Positions 2,765 through 11,236 of a stretch of 64,000 nt of DNA are shown in pieces. A model generated the notes under the pieces. The model saw only the letters and a list, made by a program, of their open reading frames with translations, was not told the origin of the DNA and did no database searches. Each line of letters begins with the position of its first letter. Within the stretch, counting starts at the first letter, position 1. The stretch is from Limosilactobacillus oris (GTDB lineage Bacteria; Bacillota; Bacilli; Lactobacillales; Lactobacillaceae). Both the position numbers and the translations under genes were made by a program. The DNA lies in NCBI RefSeq assembly GCF_025311495.1, contig NZ_CP104398.1, forward strand, positions 1,054,001-1,118,000. The letters run 5' to 3'.

Positions 2765-3082
2765 TTATTTCAAGTTACTACTTGAGCGCTTTATCCGCGT
2801 TACTTTTACATGACCGTTAATATCATCACGTCGTAGTACTAATTCTCCCTTAAGGTTGAATGCAAATGAAACATCATCCTTATGATTTTCTGAGTTAAGG
2901 AAAGTAAAAATATCGCCTTTAATACTGGTATTCATCGCGGTTTCACTGAACTTTTGCCAAGGTCCCATTCTAAGTACAACAGGAGCAGAATTGAGATTAG
3001 TAATCAACTCTAATGTTTCTTTTCTTATACGCTGTTGAAGTTCACCTCGGGTTAACTGCTTATTTGGTTTATGTTTACTCAT
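2765..3082 (-). CDS. uncharacterised 105-aa cytosolic protein of the surface locus
   Basis: A small basic protein with no signal peptide or membrane segment. The N-terminal ~30 residues look helical and charged; the rest alternates short hydrophobic strands (IKGDIFTFL, VSFAFNLKGELVLRR), suggesting a small beta-rich fold. AGAGGA lies 8 nt upstream of ATG. It sits 29 bp downstream of the broken LPXTG gene and 89 bp upstream of the SEC10/PgrA gene on the same strand, so the three are probably co-transcribed. Its place between two surface-protein genes recalls PrgU-type small regulators beside prgA/prgB on enterococcal plasmids. That comparison rests on position only, not on recognised homology. 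Confidence 0.6.
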   Translation of the reverse strand: MSKHKPNKQLTRGELQQRIRKETLELITNLNSAPVVLRMGPWQKFSETAMNTSIKGDIFTFLNSENHKDDVSFAFNLKGELVLRRDDINGHVKVTRIKRSSSNLK

Positions 3083-3111
3083 TAACGTGTCCTCTTATAT
3101 TGAATAGATAC

Positions 3112-3912
3112 CTAATTCTTTCGACGTACACTGACTAAACCAAACATACCTAACATAGTAGCTAGGCCAAGAGCAATGAAACCATTACTGTTATTGCTTC
3201 CGGTTTGTGGTAATTTCCCGTTGTTAAGGTCAGAGCGCTTTGGAGTATTGTTGTTGCCAACTTCATTAGCAACTGACTTTACGTTATTGTTTGTAACCGC
3301 AGTTTGAGAACCATTTTCGCTAGGTGCAACGGTGACGTTGTGATCAGCCTTAGTTTGACCTTGATTACCACTTGGTTGAGTGGATGGCTGTTGGTCGTTA
3401 GGCTTTATTGTCGGCGTTAGTTTGCGCTTGTGCTTGCTGTACAGCTTGATCGGTTTGGGCTTGTTGCTTTACCGCGTTGTCATAGTCGTTCTGTGCCTTG
3501 CTTGCTTCAGCTTGGGATTGAGTAACTTCAGCTTGTGTGTTTTGTTCGGCAGTAGTTGCTGATTGGACCTTTTGAGAAGCAGCAGCAACGTCAGCTTGAG
3601 CAGAATCAACGTTGCCCTGTGCGGTAGTGTTCTTAGCACTAGCTTGAGCAAGATTGCTTTGTGCTTCAGTATTAGTCTTTTGGGCATTAGCGAGAGCTTC
3701 CCGGCTGGCGTCTTGCTGACTCTTTAGGTTACTAACTTGTGAATCTTGAGTTTGATTAGTAGTATCAGTTTGGGTATTAACGGTATCAGCATGAATATTG
3801 CCTGTCACTGCCATTGTTCCACCGGTAACGCCGGCTGCAGCGAGTGTAGAAAGTGTAAGTTTAGTTTTGAAGGTTATTTTTTATTGTCTTTTTTGGATTT
3901 GGTTGCTTGCAT
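3112..3912 (-). pseudogene. small LPXTG coiled-coil surface protein, two compensating frameshifts
   Basis: Starting at ATG 3912 (GGGGGA 10 nt upstream), the frame reads MQATKSKKDNKK and then stops. Adding one A in the six-A run (3877-3882) continues it as KKITFKTKLTLSTLAAAG... and a normal signal peptide ending in H-A-D. Translation then stays open through ~130 residues of Ala/Gln/Thr coiled coil until a stop at 3398. Removing one A near 3404-3406 joins it to KPNDQQPSTQP..., a Pro/Asn-rich wall spanner, LPQTGSNNSN, a hydrophobic segment and RRKN. Net frame is restored, giving a ~266-aa sortase substrate. As written it cannot be made intact. It could be a pseudogene, a homopolymer phase switch, or paired sequence errors. 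Confidence 0.75.
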
Positions 3913-3978
3913 GGTAATATATCCCCCAATTCATCATATTTAATAGCATATTTATAATCAGTTTTATGATACCGCAAA

Positions 3979-4013
3979 CTATACGGATACGTATAGCTAA
4001 GATTATACGTATA
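3979..4013. promoter_or_regulatory. paired palindromes, likely operators of the divergent XRE regulator
   Basis: The gap between the LPXTG gene (leftward) and the XRE gene (rightward) carries CTATACG-GATA-CGTATAG (3979-3996) and, 7 bp on, the perfect palindrome TATACGTATA (4004-4013). Both share the TATACG half site. Tandem dyads of one half-site type between a regulator and a divergent target are the usual layout for XRE autoregulation. Binding is inferred, not shown. Confidence 0.5.
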
Positions 4014-4065
4014 CGCTCTTAAAACGAATATCAAGGTTTCATACGATTAAGTAAAAAAAGGTCGT

Positions 4066-4443
4066 ATGAAAATGATTGATATTAAAGCCGTTGGTGCCAA
4101 CATTGCCGACATCAGGCGTAAAAATAACCTAACACAAGAACAGCTAGCAGAGTTGGCAGGCCTTTCAACCAACTATATTGCACGTGTTGAGCGTGGCGAA
4201 ATACAGAATTTTAGTGCCATCAATATGTTGAGGATTGCAGCAGCTTTGGATGTTAGTATTGACGAACTAGCTGAAGGCGCTCATGAAAAAGAAAAACTAA
4301 AGTCCAAGCCACACCGCAAAGAATTAAATAAGTTGTTAGATCAGATGGGACACGAAACTAGCGAATTGCTATCGCAATCATTCATTAAGACAATTCACTT
4401 AATCCAGGATAATAATTCAAAGCATGAAAAAAGCGGCAAGTAG
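4066..4443 (+). CDS. XRE-family DNA-binding regulator
   Basis: A 125-aa protein. Residues ~9-62 are a Cro/CI-type helix-turn-helix: LTQEQLAELAGLS, then TNYIARVERGE as the recognition helix, then the INMLRIAAALDV packing helix. The C-terminal ~60 residues are charged and helical, probably for dimerisation. AAAGGT lies just upstream of the first of two close ATGs. It is transcribed divergently from the LPXTG/105-aa/SEC10 cluster with dyads between them, so it most likely controls itself and that cluster. The sign of control cannot be read from sequence. Confidence 0.85.
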   Translation: MKMIDIKAVGANIADIRRKNNLTQEQLAELAGLSTNYIARVERGEIQNFSAINMLRIAAALDVSIDELAEGAHEKEKLKSKPHRKELNKLLDQMGHETSELLSQSFIKTIHLIQDNNSKHEKSGK

Positions 4444-4464
4444 CATTCAAAACTACTTGCCGCT
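4432..4464 (+). terminator. hairpin terminator overlapping the XRE stop codon
   Basis: AGCGGCAAGTAG (4432-4443, containing the TAG stop) pairs perfectly with CTACTTGCCGCT (4453-4464) across a 9-nt loop. The downstream tract is AT-rich (ATATTAATTA) rather than a clean U run, so termination may be moderate. Confidence 0.6.
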
Positions 4465-4565
4465 ATATTAATTACACAGTTGGATAAGATTGGGGCATTC
4501 CCCAATAAGAACGTTTTTTAATCATCCTCACGTTCCGCTTATAATCAGCGATTTCAAGGGTCTAC

Positions 4566-4633
4566 TTTTTACGCAGTTATTAAATTGTGCGTAAAAATTT
4601 GAACTATTCGTATTCAATTGAAGATGGCCCTTT
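4566..4633. other. att-like junction: duplicate of the guaA 3' end beside an inverted repeat
   Basis: Read on the minus strand, 4633-4604 encodes K-G-P-S-S-I-E-Y-E-stop; the real GuaA ends [13 protein letters not shown] at 9683. The shared DNA is ATTCGTATTC(A/G)ATTG at 4606-4620 and 9685-9699. No GuaA-like sequence continues upstream of these codons here. Next to it is a 10-bp inverted repeat TTTTTACGCA (4566-4575) / TGCGTAAAAA (4588-4597). A partial guaA tail in direct orientation 5.1 kb from the intact gene is the footprint expected of site-specific integration at the guaA 3' end. Confidence 0.6.
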
Positions 4634-4674
4634 ATCATCCCTATAATATCGGCATTTCTAGAGTCATTCCCTAT

Positions 4675-4696
4675 TTTTGGTAGGGTTTTGGTAGGG
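4675..4696. repeat. 22-bp direct repeat, left copy (two tandem TTTTGGTAGGG)
   Basis: Two tandem copies of the 11-mer TTTTGGTAGGG. An identical 22-bp block occurs at 9572-9593 in the same orientation. The copies lie ~55 bp and ~92 bp inside the two guaA-tail sequences. Their position fits arm-type recombinase sites or ends of an integrated element (inference). Confidence 0.75.
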
Positions 4697-4700
4697 TCAG

Positions 4701-5321
4701 TTATTTCGTTGAGTGCAGATGTTGATTGCCATTAAAAGCCAACCTATTCTCCTTGGCTTTTTTGAAGACGATATTACCTTCCATTTTATCAGCAATGCTT
4801 TCATCATTACGCGGCCACAAATGTGAAATGATGATATCTTTACCATCTTCGTCACAGTCATTACACTTATAGCTTTCTTGGTATAAATTCACACAATATA
4901 ACTCGGCTGGCTTCAGCCGGACTTCACGGCTATACAAATGATTACCAATCTTTTTCATCTGTTCATGGCACTTTGGACAATCCTCATTAGTTAAATGAAT
5001 CGTCTTATCTACTTGAGGTAACCTATCCAAAAAAGCGGTCCGCTGACCAGAAACCTTGGCTTTCCGATGACGCACCACTTGTTTTTTCTGCTTTTCAATC
5101 ACTTCCGTGATTGAAACATTAGAATCTTGCAGCTGAGCTAGTTCATCATCACTAAACAGTGATTGCTGACCATCAACTACGGACTCAATTACTTCAGTTT
5201 TTTTCCCAAACATTTGGTTTTGTTGAAGCTTAATAATCGCTGTCAACTTATTAACCTGGTCCTTTAAAGCCTTGATTTGCTGCTTAAGCTCTCGATTCTC
5301 CTCTACTAAACTCTTACTCAT
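4701..5321 (-). pseudogene. tnpC: truncated IS66 transposase TnpC
   Basis: 206 residues, against roughly 500 in complete family members. It keeps the N-terminal leucine-zipper-like coiled coil (residues ~1-50), the linker, and the zinc-binding region with CPKCHEQ and CNDCDEDGKD (residues ~115-165). It loses the whole DDE catalytic domain. After ...DESIADKMEG the last ~22 residues do not look like IS66, so a deletion has fused it to other sequence that reads on to a chance stop beside the 22-bp direct repeat. Confidence 0.8.
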
Positions 5322-5392
5322 AGTACGTCACCTCCCTTTAAATTATTCTTCGGTAATTATATCAAAGAACAACGATTTTAAACAGAGGTAAT

Positions 5393-5749
5393 TCAATAAA
5401 AGGTACCTGGTTGGGCTGCTTTGATCCGACGAACTGGCAACGGGTTTAATCCTTTCAATAACCAATCCAATTGCCTAGCTAATAACTCTTTAGCTTCACT
5501 ACTATGTCTTGGCCAGCTCAAATGACCATTCTCAAAACGCTTATAGAGTAAAATAAAGCCTTCACCGTCCCAAAGTAACCCTTTGAACCGATCATTACGT
5601 GACCCACAAAAGAGGAACAGAGAATTATCGTATAACTCTAGTCCATAGTTTTCCGCGATAACCATCGCCAGCCCATCAATTCCTTTACGTAAATCAGTTT
5701 TCCCGCAAACTAGATAAACATGGTCTGGATCGTGCCAGTTAATGAGCAT
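5393..5749 (-). CDS. tnpB: IS66 accessory protein TnpB
   Basis: 118 aa, full length for the IS66 Orf2 family. It has the characteristic opening (VYLVCGKTDLRKGIDGLAMV), the central LFLFCGSRNDRFKGLLWDGEGF block and the WPRHSSEAKEL region. Start ATG 5749 overlaps the end of tnpA, implying translational coupling. The protein is needed for IS66 transposition but its biochemical role is unsettled. Confidence 0.9.
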   Translation of the reverse strand: MLINWHDPDHVYLVCGKTDLRKGIDGLAMVIAENYGLELYDNSLFLFCGSRNDRFKGLLWDGEGFILLYKRFENGHLSWPRHSSEAKELLARQLDWLLKGLNPLPVRRIKAAQPGTFY

Positions 5750-5927
5750 AATGCACCACAGCCTTTACAATCTCGGCCGCAAGGCTGGGATTGGTGCCTT
5801 TGAAAATTGTTAATTGGATATTTCCAGCTTTCATTTTAACGACTGGCCGCGATGAAATTTTGGCCTTACTAACCGGCTTACCTTTGGCTTTGAAAACGGG
5901 TGCCACAATATCATGCTTCTCTTCCAT
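5739..5927 (-). CDS. tnpA: IS66 accessory protein TnpA
   Basis: A 62-aa basic protein in the tnpA position of IS66, preceded by AGGAGGA (~8 nt before ATG). It is shorter than many TnpA proteins and the usual helix-turn-helix is not obvious, so assignment rests mainly on order and overlap with tnpB. A short inverted repeat TACTGAA/TTCAGTA lies just upstream (5943-5965). Confidence 0.7.
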   Translation of the reverse strand: MEEKHDIVAPVFKAKGKPVSKAKISSRPVVKMKAGNIQLTIFKGTNPSLAAEIVKAVVHYAH

Positions 5928-6149
5928 AAAGAAATCCTCCTGTACTGAATCTTATGTCTTCAGTATAGGGGGATTGGTCGACCGCGCCTAGACGTATCGT
6001 TATTGACTGCTTACACATAACCACTTCGTATGGGCTAGACTATTTAGTTTATTAGCCATATTTATAAAACCTCTTTTCCCTTATTCGATTTTGGCTTGAA
6101 CACCTACATCTTAAGACAAAAGAGGTCTTATTTATATAATTTTTATCGC

Positions 6150-6174
6150 CCACCCGCATAGCAGGTGGTTTTTT
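6150..6174 (+). terminator. rho-independent terminator with U6 tract
   Basis: Stem CCACC/GGTGG with a 9-nt loop followed by TTTTTT. It faces rightward although no rightward gene remains to its left, so it is probably left over from a deleted gene. Confidence 0.5.
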
Positions 6175-6231
6175 GTTTCGTGCACTCGCTTCGCTCACGC
6201 ACTCAACTAGGTCTAAAGACATTAATCAAAT

Positions 6232-6252
6232 CTGTTTGCTGAAAGCAAACAG
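6232..6252 (-). terminator. hairpin downstream of multicopper oxidase
   Basis: CTGTTTGC / GCAAACAG, a perfect 8-bp stem with a 5-nt loop, 22 bp past the oxidase stop. On the minus strand it is followed by an AT-rich rather than U-rich tract. Confidence 0.45.
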
Positions 6253-6274
6253 TCTAGGCAATGACAACTAAGAA

Positions 6275-7813
6275 TTACATTTCCATCCCCATTTTTTTAT
6301 AGGATTCCATTCCACCAAGCCAAAGGTCGTCCATCGTTACGCCTCGTTCCTCGGCAAAGGCCATCATTAAGGTCATATGATCCATTAACTGGTATTTCTT
6401 ATCTAGATTTGCTGGATCGACAACCTTAATTTGGGCCATCATTCCGCCATCTTCGTGTTCAATAATGTGGCAGTGGTACATGAAGACTCCTGGAACATGG
6501 TACCAAACCTTGATTACGACATGTTCTCCCGGATTAATGGCAACCGTATCCTTTAAACCAAGCTCGTTTGGGTGAGGAGTTTGACCATCACGGGAAATAA
6601 CCGTAAAGGCCGTACCGTGCATATGATAAGGGTGGATCATTCCTGGAGCGTCATCAGTATTGGTAATATCCCACAACTGAACTTGACCTAGTCGCATTTG
6701 ATAGTCAATCCGATCCATCTTGAACTTCTTACCATTCATTGCCACTTCCTCATCCATCCCATCTAAGGTAACCTTGTGAACCGGCAGTCCTGGGGTTACT
6801 GCTGGGTCCGGAGTAGTAAAGAGCGTAGTCGGTAATTCTCGGTTATCCGGAGTAAAGGACTGGACCCGGAAGCGAACCAAAGGTACATCATCGGAGTAAA
6901 GAGTTACCACATCGCCCGGTTTATAGTTACCAAAATCAACTATGATTTCCATTCGTTCAGCACAGGTAATTAAGACCCGGTTCATCTTAACTGGATGAGG
7001 AAGTAAACTTAAATCACCTGCAACCTGAGTGAATGACAGATCGTCGCTAAAGTGGAGCCGGAATTCCCGTCGGTTAGCACCGTTCAACAGGCGAAGACGA
7101 ACTCGTTGAGTAGTAACGTTAAAATAAGGATTAATTGTCCCGTTAATCATTGGAGTTGGTCCTGCGACCCCATCTGGATCATAGTCTGCCCGGTAATCCC
7201 ATTGGTTATTTTCGTGAAAGCGCCGATCTTGCAGGATAATTGGAAGGTCATCAACACCGTAGTTCCGTGGGAGTGGCAATTGGGCTTCTTGATCGTCTTG
7301 AATAATCGCTGCCGCCGCTAATCCGTGCCAAACCTGTTCGGCAGTTGACGGACATGGATGGGCATGAAGCCAAGTTAAGGCCGCTGGTTGATCAACCTTA
7401 AAGCTAATGTCCCGACTCTGACCAGGGTAAACCGGAGCGTGACAGCCCCCATCCTCAAGCGGGCCAGGAATTGCTAACCCGTGCCAGTGGAAAGTTGTTA
7501 ATTCTGGTAGTTTATTAACTAAGTGGATGTGGGCTGTTTGTCCCTTTTTAAACACCACTGTTTTCCCTAATAAACTAGTGTTATAACCCCAGGTTTTGGT
7601 TTTAGCTCCGGGTAATAGCTGAGTTTCCCCCTCCTGGGCAACAATCGTGTAATAGACATCGTCAGTGGTTTCCTTGTCCGGCGTTAGCAATTCTGGAATC
7701 CGTAGTGGTTGTTGCGAAACAGCCGGTTCTACTAACGGGATGTAACCTCCATCATGATAGTCATACGCCGCTTCATCATAATAGTAATGATCAACTAATT
7801 TTTCCGTTGCCAT
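6275..7813 (-). CDS. multicopper oxidase (laccase-like)
   Basis: 512 aa, three cupredoxin domains with all four copper-ligand motifs: HWHG (109-112), HAH (150-152), HPYHMHG (394-400) and HCHIIEHEDGGMM (447-459), the last holding the type 1 Cys/His/Met ligands. There is no Sec or Tat signal, so it should be cytosolic like other lactobacillal multicopper oxidases. Family members oxidise phenolics, Cu(I) or biogenic amines; the substrate here is unknown. The C-terminal tail is Met-rich (HMTLMM, KKMGMEM), which may help bind copper. An ORF for a 50-aa membrane protein lies 36 bp upstream in the same direction. It sits inside the putative guaA-linked element, so it is likely cargo. Confidence 0.92.
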   Translation of the reverse strand: MATEKLVDHYYYDEAAYDYHDGGYIPLVEPAVSQQPLRIPELLTPDKETTDDVYYTIVAQEGETQLLPGAKTKTWGYNTSLLGKTVVFKKGQTAHIHLVNKLPELTTFHWHGLAIPGPLEDGGCHAPVYPGQSRDISFKVDQPAALTWLHAHPCPSTAEQVWHGLAAAAIIQDDQEAQLPLPRNYGVDDLPIILQDRRFHENNQWDYRADYDPDGVAGPTPMINGTINPYFNVTTQRVRLRLLNGANRREFRLHFSDDLSFTQVAGDLSLLPHPVKMNRVLITCAERMEIIVDFGNYKPGDVVTLYSDDVPLVRFRVQSFTPDNRELPTTLFTTPDPAVTPGLPVHKVTLDGMDEEVAMNGKKFKMDRIDYQMRLGQVQLWDITNTDDAPGMIHPYHMHGTAFTVISRDGQTPHPNELGLKDTVAINPGEHVVIKVWYHVPGVFMYHCHIIEHEDGGMMAQIKVVDPANLDKKYQLMDHMTLMMAFAEERGVTMDDLWLGGMESYKKMGMEM

Positions 7814-7849
7814 AATTAGTCCTCCTCGTCCTTACTAAGTCCGATTGTG

Positions 7850-8002
7850 TTACTTTTTAATACTACTCGCCAACTCTTTAAGCGAGCAGAGGAACATTCC
7901 AATAGCCATCAGGTACATAGCAAGCATCATCTTATTCATAAAGGTTAGAATCAATACAACAATCCAGAAAAGGGGTAATCCCCCTGTGATAACTCTATTC
8001 AT
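7850..8002 (-). CDS. 50-aa membrane protein upstream of the multicopper oxidase
   Basis: ATG 8002 to TAA 7850, with GAAGGAGTG 8-10 nt before the start. The protein begins MNRVITGGLPLFWIVVLIL and has two hydrophobic stretches (residues ~9-22 and ~26-40) around an N-K-M-M turn, then a basic tail ending SIKK. It is probably a two-pass hairpin or a membrane-lying peptide. The strong ribosome site and close spacing to the oxidase suggest a real gene and a shared transcript. I do not recognise a family. Confidence 0.65.
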   Translation of the reverse strand: MNRVITGGLPLFWIVVLILTFMNKMMLAMYLMAIGMFLCSLKELASSIKK

Positions 8003-8191
8003 TTTTAATTTTCACTCCTTCAATAAAAAATTACCATATTTGGCAGTGATTCACAATGATTTTTAGGTTATATAAACTTTTTATTTTGCACTACCATCAA
8101 TTACTGCTACGGACTATTTTGATTGAATCTAAATTATTTTATTTACTTATCACTTGTCTCCCAAAAAATTTTCTTGGTGGATTATAGAATG

Positions 8192-9439
8192 AAGTTAGCC
8201 ACCTAATTGGTGGTAAATGCAAAAACGCCATCCGGCGTGACATCAGGTATCATATTAAGTGAATCAAACCTATATGAAAGGATGTCCGTCAAATGACGCA
8301 CTTAAATGATACCATGCCCACTAACCTTTTGGCCACTCATCGCAAATATGCACACCTTACTAAAGAAGAGCGAGTGATGATTGCGACTTTAAAGTCGCAA
8401 GGACTTTCCAATCGCGCAATCGGTCGTCAATTAGGAGTGAACCACCAAACCATTAATAATGAGCTTAAACGTGGTACAGTTCGCCAAATTCGTCGTCAAA
8501 AATTCAATGGTAAGACTTACGATTACCCTTATTACATCTACAGTTATGAAGCTGGTCAGAATATTTATCTTAAATGCCACCAACGGTCCGGTCGTCCTCG
8601 TTTATATTACCGCTCAAAGCGTTTTTTACAATTGGCCGACCAATTAATGCTTGGTGAATTTGATGAGCATCGTTACTCTCCTCAAGCAGCTATTTATAAG
8701 GCACGTGATTTGATGAGTGATGATTCACTGATCCCTAAGTCTGTTGTGACTTTGTATCAGTGGATTAATGATGGTGTATTCCGTACGTCTAACTTGGACC
8801 TTTTTGAGAAAACTAAACGTAAACACCATCAATCTCATCCACAAGCCAAAAAGTGCTTAGGACCTAACATTGCTCAACGTCCACAGGTTGCGGACCAACG
8901 GTCCGAAATTGGTCATTGGGAACTAGACACTATTCAAGGTCATAAAGATGGCAAGAATAGCGTTCTTCTAGTAATGACTGATCGTTTTTCACGGGTTAAT
9001 ATTACGAGAAAAATTACCAGTAAAACTGCATATGCAGTGAATCATTTTTTGTTGAGTTGCGTCAGAAGCTTGGCAAGAATGCTTACTATCGCATTTTTAA
9101 AACAATTACTTCTGATAATGGTTCTGAATTTAGTGAGTTAACGCGAGTTCATGACCATGTTTTTTTACACTGTCCCATATTCTCCTTGGGAACGCGGATC
9201 CAATAAAATCAATAATCGTTTTCTCCGCAAGGAGATTACCAAAGGCCAAGCTATTAATGATTATAGTAGTGCCCAGATTATAGCGACCAATAACTGGATG
9301 AATCACTATCCACGAGCCATATTTAATGGACGTTCTGCAATGGATATTTACTGTAAAGCATTCTATCAAGAGATATCACGTTCTCATCAACCAATAATTA
9401 ATTGGTCAGTGCTATTTATTTCAGCTTAGTGGCTAACTT
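8192..9439 (+). mobile_element. IS30-family insertion sequence
   Basis: Imperfect terminal inverted repeats share AAGTTAGCCAC at 8192-8202 and its complement GTGGCTAACTT at 9429-9439, with similar flanking bases (AGAAT... / ...TTCTT). The ~1.25-kb interval holds one transposase gene in two pieces. No clear target duplication was identified by eye. Confidence 0.75.
8293..9429 (+). pseudogene. IS30 transposase with two compensating frameshifts
   Basis: The N-terminal helix-turn-helix (LTKEERVMIATLKSQGLSNR, then IGRQLGVNHQTINNELKRG) and the first catalytic Asp region (GHWELDTIQG) are intact. The frame shifts after AYAVNH at a six-T run (9045-9050) that should be seven, passes through TSDNGSEF (second Asp) in another frame, then shifts back at a seven-T run (9160-9166) that should be six, giving YTVPYSPWERGSNKINNRFLR, which holds the catalytic Glu region. 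Corrected length is ~378 aa, normal for IS30. Confidence 0.85.
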
Positions 9440-9571
9440 ATTCTTGAAATTTAGATACCTGTTATTTTTCGTCTATATGTTAACTAAGATGAAGTTCAAA
9501 ATGAAAAAGCAATCAAACACTTACTATCAATTGTAAATGCTGATTGCTTTTTTCACGCTCAATATTATAAG

Positions 9572-9593
9572 TTTTGGTAGGGTTTTGGTAGGG
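9572..9593. repeat. 22-bp direct repeat, right copy (two tandem TTTTGGTAGGG)
   Basis: Identical to 4675-4696 and in the same orientation, ~90 bp left of the guaA stop. The gap around it (9440-9682) otherwise shows only AT-rich sequence without a supportable gene. Confidence 0.75.
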
Positions 9594-9682
9594 AACAATG
9601 TTGCTTTTTATAGATTTGAATTGATTTTGCACCATTCAAATGCCGTTAAATTAGGATTCCGCTATCAAGTTAATAAGCAACA

Positions 9683-11236
9683 TCATTCGTATTCGATTGT
9701 CGAAGGCGGCTTACTCGTGACGTCGTACAAGATTCGGTTAACGTGGTCGACTTCATTGACGATCCGAACGGAAATCTTTTGCAAGACGTCCCACGGAATC
9801 TTGGCGAAGTCCGCGGTCATCCCGTCAATCGACGTCACAGCCCGGATGGCAACGGCGTAGTCATATGTCCGACCATCACCCATGACCCCAACGGAACGAA
9901 TGCCCGGCAGGACGGTGAAGTATTGCCAAATTTTCTCATCCAGGCCGGCCTTCTTGATTTCTTCTCGCAGGATGGCATCTGATTCCCGAACAATTTCCAA
10001 CTTCTCTGGCGTGATTTCACCAATCACCCGGATTCCCAAACCAGGACCAGGAAACGGTTGTCGCCAAACCAGTTCGTGCGGAATCCCCAATTTTTCACCC
10101 AGCTCACGGGTCTCATCCTTGAAGAGCTTGCGCAGCGGTTCGATCAGCTTAAAGCCGAGCTTCTTCGGCAGGCCCCCAACATTGTGGTGGGACTTGATTG
10201 TCTGGGCCGTGTCCGTCCCGGATTCAATGACGTCAGTATACAGGGTTCCCTGAGCCAGGAAGTCCGCGTCCGGAATCTTCTTAGCTTCTTCATTGAAGAC
10301 CTCAATAAATTCCTTGCCGATAATCTTCCGCTTTTGTTCGGGATCGGTCACCCCTGCCAGCTTACCCAGGAAGCGGTCAGCAGCGTCTACCTTGACGATG
10401 TTCACACCGAGGTCCTTGTTCAATGCCTTCATGACCTGGTCTGCTTCGTTCTTCCGCAACAGACCGTGGTCAACGAAGATACACGTCAGCTGGTCACCAA
10501 TCGCCTTATGGATTAACACGGCCGTCACGCTGGAGTCGACCCCACCAGACAGGCCGAGGATAACCTTCTTGTCGCCGACTTCCTTGCGAATGTGTTCCAC
10601 CTGCAAGTTAATGAAATCGTCCATCGTCCAGTTATCCTTCGCACCACAGACATCAAAGGCAAAGCGGCGCAGGATGTCCAACCCGTACTCGGAGTTGCGC
10701 ACTTCGGCGTGGAATTGGATTCCGTAGAATTTCCGTTCATTATCCGCGATGGCTGAAATCGGGCAGTTCTTACTCGTTGCCGTTACCGTAAATCCAGCCG
10801 GTGCTTGAGTTACCAGGTCACCGTGGCTCATCCAAACATACTGTTTCTTCGGCAGGCCCTTAAACACGACGGCGTCATCATCGACCACCTCAATGTCCGC
10901 CCGACCGTATTCAGAATTATTGGCATTTTCGACCTTGCCACCTAAATCATAGGCCATCAGCTGCATCCCGTAACAGATACCAAGAATCGGAATCCCCAGT
11001 TTGAAGATCTCTGGATCAACCTTAAAGGCTCCTTCGTCGTATACACTGTTAGGGCCACCGGAGAAAATGATTCCCTTAGGGTTGATCTGCTTGATTTCGT
11101 CCGCTGTAATCTTGTGTGACAGGAGTTCGGAATAGACCCCAAAATCACGCAGGCGGCGGGTAATCAGCTGGTTGTACTGACTACCGAAGTCCAGGACGAT
11201 AATCTTGTCAAAAGCATCTAAATTGATGTTTGCCAC
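9683..11236 (-). CDS. guaA: GMP synthase (glutamine-hydrolysing)
   Basis: 517 aa, full length. It converts XMP, ATP and glutamine to GMP. The N-terminal class I amidotransferase domain has the nucleophile in GICYGMQLM and the His in IQFHAE. The ATP pyrophosphatase domain has the P-loop [10 protein letters not shown] and a C-terminal dimerisation domain ending PPSTIEYE. No purine-type riboswitch is visible upstream (11237-11347). Its 3' end is the apparent integration target of the neighbouring element; the gene itself is intact. Confidence 0.97.

Follow-up and report, generated by a model that had tools for sequence, protein, structure and literature searches.

The stretch of DNA considered here, referred to as the window, comprises 64,000 nucleotides of the single-contig genome (2,007,883 bases) of Limosilactobacillus oris. 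The segment beside guaA, the essential gene for GMP synthase, is very probably a decayed mobile island inserted at the 3′ end of that gene. It resembles a cis-mobilizable element (CIME), in that the left and right attachment sites (attL and attR) are kept and the mobility genes are lost. Both attachment (att) sites, both junctions, a remnant of the integrase gene and a conserved geometry of the attachment arms are present. The island itself is real but ordinary, islands at guaA being already known; the useful part is the layout of its arms. The comparison set consists of 50 genomes of the genus, the window's own included, from collections that hold one genome per species (G numbers denote genomes, L numbers loci).

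Edges and contents of the guaA island

The attachment features and the target gene are as follows.

4606..4620, plus strand: attL core (ATTCGTATTCAATTG), a direct copy of the guaA 3′ end, where homology to G033 begins
4650..4657, plus strand: CGGCATTT, inverted partner of the attR AAATGCCG motif, 42 bp from the core start in the window and in G033
4675..4696, plus strand: left arm, two exact 11-bp units TTTTGGTAGGG, in a layout shared by G033, G002 and G001, where the adjoining integrase gene is whole
9502..9555, plus strand: terminator-like hairpin in the right arm (fold of 9480-9580, z -3.08), its sequence conserved in G045, G026, G046 and G024
9572..9593, plus strand: right arm, two exact 11-bp units TTTTGGTAGGG, which places the pair at -109 bp relative to the core
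9638..9645, plus strand: AAATGCCG motif, 47 bp from the core
9685..9699, plus strand: attR core (ATTCGTATTCGATTG), within the guaA 3′ end, from sequence reading and relatives
9683..11236, minus strand: guaA (GMP synthase), whole open reading frame (ORF) of 517 aa, Pfam GMP_synt_C and GATase

The last residues of GuaA are ...KPPSTIEYE (stop at 9683), and those of a second frame, which stops at 4604, are ...DDKGPSSIEYE. The two cores, ATTCGTATTC-A-ATTG at 4606-4620 and ATTCGTATTC-G-ATTG at 9685-9699, are direct and lie 5,079 bp apart. The initial annotation, which proposed a decayed integrative element at this site, had described the second frame as a further set of GuaA terminal codons. The element is borne out by both cores, both junctions and the integrase remnant, and the direct orientation of the codon set stands. 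The truly shared part of the two ends is, however, the core ATTCGTATTC-R-ATTG of about 10-15 bp, and the codons for K-G-P-S are part of the element: in G033 this place reads K-G-A-S, and other elements differ there. The 22-bp repeat said to lie inside each end is identical and exact at 4675-4696 and 9572-9593, and the interval is AT-rich as described, with a GC content of 0.405 in 4604-9684 vs 0.519 from 9685 to the end of the window.

The edges were located by homology. On the left host side, positions 3654-4617 are 89% identical at the DNA level to contig 132 of G029 and the match ends within the core; this contig shares the gene for an XRE-type regulator and then diverges to other DNA inside the core. 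On the left element side, positions 4603-4826 are 89% identical at the DNA level to G033, whose host flank differs up to the core. On the right, positions 9455-9683 share 96-98% identity with the arm next to guaA in G045, G026 and G046 (from 9494 in G046), and equally with an arm in G024. Past this arm lie the own guaA codons of G045, G026 and G046 and another element in G024, and the species differ at the core. Because host homology and element homology both stop at the core, both edges are fixed from relatives. The properties of an integrative element found here are the occurrence of the guaA 3′ end as a direct repeat at either edge, a whole guaA gene and breaks of homology at the edges.

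The contents of the segment and its host flank are listed below.

4066..4443, plus strand: XRE-type regulator in the host flank distal to guaA (Pfam HTH_3, E 3e-15; 89% identical protein in G029)
4701..4826, minus strand: last 41 codons and stop of an IntA-type tyrosine integrase, a remnant (aligned by tblastn with residues 365-405 of the integrase in G033)
4827..5321, minus strand: truncated TnpC of an IS66 insertion sequence (IS), fused in frame to the integrase remnant (ORF 4701-5321, 206 aa; Pfam LZ_Tnp_IS66 and zf-IS66 on residues 25-157)
5393..5749, minus strand: IS66 TnpB (Pfam TnpB_IS66, E 2.9e-32)
6275..7813, minus strand: multicopper oxidase (CueO-like), whole ORF of 512 aa (Pfam Cu-oxidase_2 and _3; best NCBIfam model CueO, below cut-off)
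8180..9454, plus strand: IS30-like insertion sequence with approximate ends (alignment to two copies in G041; Pfam HTH_38, plus rve below its cut-off)

It had been held that no integrase was left in the interval, which is incorrect: 41 C-terminal codons persist at 4701-4826. The C-terminus of the ORF at 4701-5321 is SHLWPRNDESIADKMEGNIVFKKAKENRLAFNGNQHLHSTK, the 41 residues that align to the G033 integrase; Pfam alone puts no name on this piece. The catalytic tyrosine presumably lies in a YY pair, and the break falls directly after it. As the break lies directly at the IS66 fusion, the IS66 sits in the integrase gene, and its far end has been lost together with most of the integrase. The element's own recombinase is thus represented beside its att site by the 41-codon remnant alone; the whole gene is found in G033, G001 and G002.

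Four segment ORFs were scanned with Pfam, and these are the two of IS66, the copper oxidase and the IS30-like transposase, in agreement with the inventory first given. The remaining ORFs of at least 80 aa are on the opposite strand of the oxidase, form the second IS30 piece or overlap guaA. The transposase frame of the IS30 is broken (8293-9141 and 9151-9429); the G041 copies have ORFs of 376 aa. The right edge of the IS30 borders directly on the second half of a hairpin, GTACTAC...GTAGTACC, that is whole in G024 and G026, and the first half is absent throughout window positions 4600-9700. We infer that the losses in the segment were driven by the insertion sequences.

Outside the island, the DNA beside the XRE gene (2765-3814) holds short ORFs that are repeat-rich or unnamed, e.g. 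3398-3814 on the minus strand. In G002 a 934-aa surface-protein-like ORF adjoins an XRE gene, in DNA downstream of guaA.

The copper oxidase had been regarded as the load of the element. That the gene is adaptive cargo brought in by the element is unlikely. It does sit between both att sites, and a relative is found downstream of guaA in G029 (about 6 kb) and G030 (about 28 kb). The gene is nevertheless present in 27 of the 50 genus genomes, its own included, with 68-82% identity to the window copy. Among the genomes with the oxidase and guaA on one contig, the window has the two about 2 kb apart, G029 6 kb, G047 18 kb, G030 28 kb and the rest at least 60 kb. The 24 other genomes that carry the gene have it on another contig than guaA, 18 kb off (G047), at least 60 kb off, or have no guaA match. 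The oxidase is therefore no evidence of island cargo, being common in the genus and mostly not near guaA. The window copy is also bracketed by IS66 and IS30, either of which could have moved it.

Integrases and the arm layout

A whole relative of the island is found in G033 (L156, 6574-17815), where the guaA core and a second core lie 11.2 kb apart. At the guaA-far end is a 405-aa tyrosine integrase (Pfam Phage_integrase, E 6.2e-17), the gene of which terminates at an arm pair 72 bp from the core. The G033 island also holds an alpha-amylase, an MFS transporter, unnamed ORFs and a possible STAND-type NTPase (a weak match, below cut-off). Integrases of G001 and G002 are 79% and 76% identical to that of G033 and belong with it to the IntA group. 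A second clade, IntB (44-46%), occurs in G001, G024, G030 and G041. In the last three, IntB and guaA share a contig, and the near edge of the IntB gene is about 22-25 kb away from guaA.

Genes for a MobA-type relaxase and a MobC-like protein are found in the IntB element of G024 and beside the right arm in G001 (L161); ORFs similar to those of G024 are visible in G030 and G041. The IntB elements at guaA (L176 and L170 in G024, L190 and L191 in G041, L180 and L181 in G030) also carry BREX-like phage-defence genes, scored as BrxA, BrxB, BrxC and PglZ in G024 and as PglX in G041. A third type of integrase (L178, about 42% to IntA) is encoded in G035, at a distance of about 8 kb from guaA. The guaA-side right arm of this genome carries the word ACGGTAGAAA/ACGGTAGACA, and the gene for a restriction-methylation protein of 1,357 aa lies between integrase and guaA. 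In the plasmid collection, 149 records hold IntA relatives of less than 60% identity (143 from Enterococcus), the best being annotated mostly as a site-specific integrase beside a DUF3173 gene. The phage collection has three records with IntA relatives, and a scan of viral contigs gave nine relatives of 28-46% identity.

The 22-mer, (TTTTGGTAGGG)x2, is rare. With up to three mismatches it occurs at two places in the window (4675 and 9572) and in none of 100 shuffles, and the exact form is confined to the same two places in the genome of 2.0 Mb. These counts leave practically no room for the explanation that an AT-rich, IS-rich spacer accidentally repeats the guaA end; the shared core is indeed just 10-15 bp, but the integrase remnant adjoins the repeat and the layout recurs in other species, so this explanation is counted as refuted. 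The exact 22-mer is present in five of the 50 genus genomes, that of the window included. In the family search TTGGTAGGGNNTTGGTAGGG was found in one of 396 genomes, its own; this draw contains 22 genomes of the genus, and the four other genomes with the exact 22-mer lie outside it.

The initial annotation proposed that the repeats mark a recombinase family, a reading that would fall if the 22-mer were common and unlinked to integrases. In the genus the 22-mer is instead tied to integrases, including an IntA-type gene of Limosilactobacillus alvi, and either the 22-mer or a sister word stands at the integrase 3′ end in 32 of the 35 related integrase loci examined. In a wide scan of genome contigs the looser form of the repeat matched at least 119 stretches, most of the 80 listed being from Bacteroidota. 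As it matches many unrelated genomes, this looser form is no marker outside lactobacilli. The pattern was found in six viral contigs, and the right arm had no blastn match in either the phage or the plasmid collection.

The 35 integrase loci comprise 30 listed by the family search and five of the genus. They are largely near-identical, with 17 left at 95% identity, 14 of these having a measured spacing. In 32 of the 35 a tandem TGG(C/T)(A/G) pair with units 10-12 bp apart lies no more than 110 bp from the integrase stop, as against 0.5% of shuffled controls. No such pair was found within 110 bp of the stop in L226, L239 and L178. Beyond the integrase end at L239 (G348) lies a regular array of repeats with a unit similar to TTTCAACTCACGCACCCCCGTGGGGTGCGAC, resembling a CRISPR array. 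The distance from core to arm is 71-73 bp in all 27 integrase loci that have both; the other five armed loci lack a core by the pattern used. The arm itself lies anywhere from 31 bp outside to 44 bp inside the gene stop and the spacing to the core is still constant, so the ruler is set by the attachment site and not by the gene.

On the guaA side, 46 loci were available, i.e. the 50 genomes minus three without a guaA match and G016, which has no tail by the pattern. An arm pair lies 105-114 bp before the core in 22 of these, and a AAATGCCG-like motif 44-50 bp before it in 25. Either mark counts as a right-arm signature, found in 28 of the 46 vs 0.0002 of shuffled controls; 18 loci have neither by these patterns. 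Of the 46, G028 offers only 79 bp, and G004 was scored without a signature though it has an arm pair with one mismatch. The guaA gene is hence a frequent dock in Limosilactobacillus, often but not always marked, and some of its islands carry BREX-like genes. The inverted partner of the AAATGCCG-like motif was found in only nine of 27 left arms by the pattern used, and so nothing is built on the pairing of these motifs.

The words within the arms differ by lineage. IntA loci have TTTTGGTAGGG, IntB and three integrases of other genera have TTTGGCAAACA, and TTTTGGCAGGG, TTTTGGCGGGG and TTGGCGACA also occur. In trees of both parts of the integrase the arm classes track lineage, with the exception of L214 (GGTAGGG word), which does not fall within the IntA group. 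The N-domain tree has many weak forks. A partial Mantel test on the 17 non-redundant integrases gave r 0.20 (p 0.029) for the N-terminal domain given the rest and r 0.16 (p 0.059) for the reverse. A domain swap, in which arm words follow the N-terminal domain alone, is not supported by the Mantel test and the trees.

A tentative generalization is that the guaA integrases of Lactobacillaceae are a family with one rigid att ruler, in which arm pairs flank a common core at a distance of about 109 bp toward guaA and 71-73 bp toward the integrase, and with lineage-specific 11-bp words of the form TTTTGG(T/C)(A/G).... Elements would share the dock, differ by word, and be able to stack and excise separately, and the window island would be a dead member whose word names the lost integrase. 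If so, distinct arm words would let several elements stack at guaA, each excised by its own integrase, and arm words at guaA would reveal which integrase lineage has visited even after the element is lost. The genus supplies integrases together with sites that have almost the same core and differ in their arms, which makes it testable how integrases that share a target avoid cutting each other's elements. No description of the arm layout at guaA was met among the titles and abstract openings listed from an open-access library, a weak negative.

Origin of the two ends

Tyrosine integrases with arm sites hold these through their N-terminal domain, and the remainder of the protein cuts the core. 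Pfam finds clear Phage_integrase and SAM-like domains in IntA, which matches solved integrases and XerD in sequence. From its position, the rigid spacing and the lineage pattern, we infer that TTTTGGTAGGG is the putative site bound by IntA. The catalytic part of the integrase would have recombined GAATACGAAT at the guaA end with the same sequence on a circular element, leaving guaA whole. Its N-terminal part would have held two TTTTGGTAGGG arm pairs, one about 109 bp from the core toward guaA and the other about 72 bp from it toward the integrase. IS66 and IS30 may have entered later, and deletions could then have taken the integrase except for its last 41 codons, together with any mobility genes. 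What was left behind would be attL, attR, the IS pieces and the copper oxidase. Judged from the sequence, such an island is not expected to move alone and might be moved only if a related integrase were supplied.

Several observations weigh against parts of this account. The alignment of guaA-downstream regions, suggested at the outset as a way to an empty site, located the junctions through relatives and gave no exact empty site in a set of one genome per species; the junctions rest on relatives that share the host side or the element side alone. The nearest relative by GuaA, G028 (99%), has a contig that reaches 79 bp beyond guaA. No transfer or conjugation, relaxase or mobility gene was found among the ORFs of 4604-9684; such genes were possibly lost. 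The match of IntA to Arm-DNA-bind_4 is weak (E 0.09, below cut-off). Other DNA interrupts the right arm of G045 at about the same point, and for this reason the right-arm deletion was not necessarily caused by this IS30 copy and may predate it. The two ends of the G033 island carry different arm words, TTTTGGTAGGG at the integrase and TTTTGGTAGAC at guaA, and in G024 an IntB element lies directly against an arm nearly identical to the right arm of the window.

The last two points also favour a different history, in which the left end derives from an IntA element and the right end from a related neighbour at the same core, a deletion between the two having made one shell. The G033 island is itself probably a mosaic of two guaA elements. 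Stacked junctions, in which a right arm and core are followed by the integrase end of another element, occur in G001 (L161 and L162), G024 (L170) and, in degenerate form, G041 (L157). L. alvi An810 (L028, 5745-6729) has a frame-broken IntA relative whose two pieces are 80-84% identical. The exact 22-mer marks its end, and it is stacked against a right arm with the TTTTGGTAGAC word. The ends of the L028 contig hold IS30 pieces 97-99% identical to the IS30 of the window. Such a collapsed array is a possibility to be taken seriously, though rather doubtful, as the identical 22-mer, the word of IntA, stands at both ends of the window island and a single element is simpler. Descent of both ends from one IntA-type element is accordingly the reading adopted here, if provisionally.

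Comparison with known systems

The 3′ end of guaA was initially presented as a known integration hotspot, and the literature agrees. Tn5801-like islands at guaA have 11-bp core repeats (PMC4844618), Tn5801_B23 and ICELm1 lie at guaA in Listeria (PMC8386393), and GI-BM6001.4 lies at guaA with a 15-bp core repeat (PMC10383233). Streptococcal integrative and conjugative elements (ICEs) are found at the gene (PMC4701971), as are integrative and mobilizable elements (IMEs) listed in a review (PMC5704250). Tn5801-like islands, Tn5801_B23, ICELm1 and GI-BM6001.4 share the end of the target gene with the window island and are different elements, likened to it here by target and repeat.

Tn6254 of Lactobacillus hokkaidonensis and its kin are ICEs at the GMP synthase gene with the integrase next to guaA (PMC4377027). 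Common to Tn6254 and the window island are a lactobacillar host, the guaA 3′ end, an integrase at one end and a short direct repeat (GAGTGGGAATA in Tn6254, GAATACGAAT in the window), and Tn6254 also has one damaged end. They differ in that the integrase remnant of the window and the integrase of G033 are at the guaA-distal end, not adjacent to guaA as in the Tn5801/Tn6254 group, and in that Tn6254 is an ICE with heavy-metal genes, none of this kind being found in the window segment. The conjugation module of the Tn5801/Tn6254 group, which may have been lost, is absent among the ORFs of the segment, as is the relaxase or mobilization gene of an IME, possibly lost as well.

The closest likeness in form is to the CIME, described as a cis-mobilizable element which keeps attL and attR and has lost its integration and transfer genes (PMC5704250). 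The window keeps both att sites, its integrase is gutted and no transfer gene was found among its ORFs. Relatives are stacked at the same site, as the review describes for accretion (PMC5704250). The interior differs, being made up of IS pieces and of a gene that is common in the genus; classed from sequence alone, the island would be a CIME-like remnant of which mobilization by a helper is putative.

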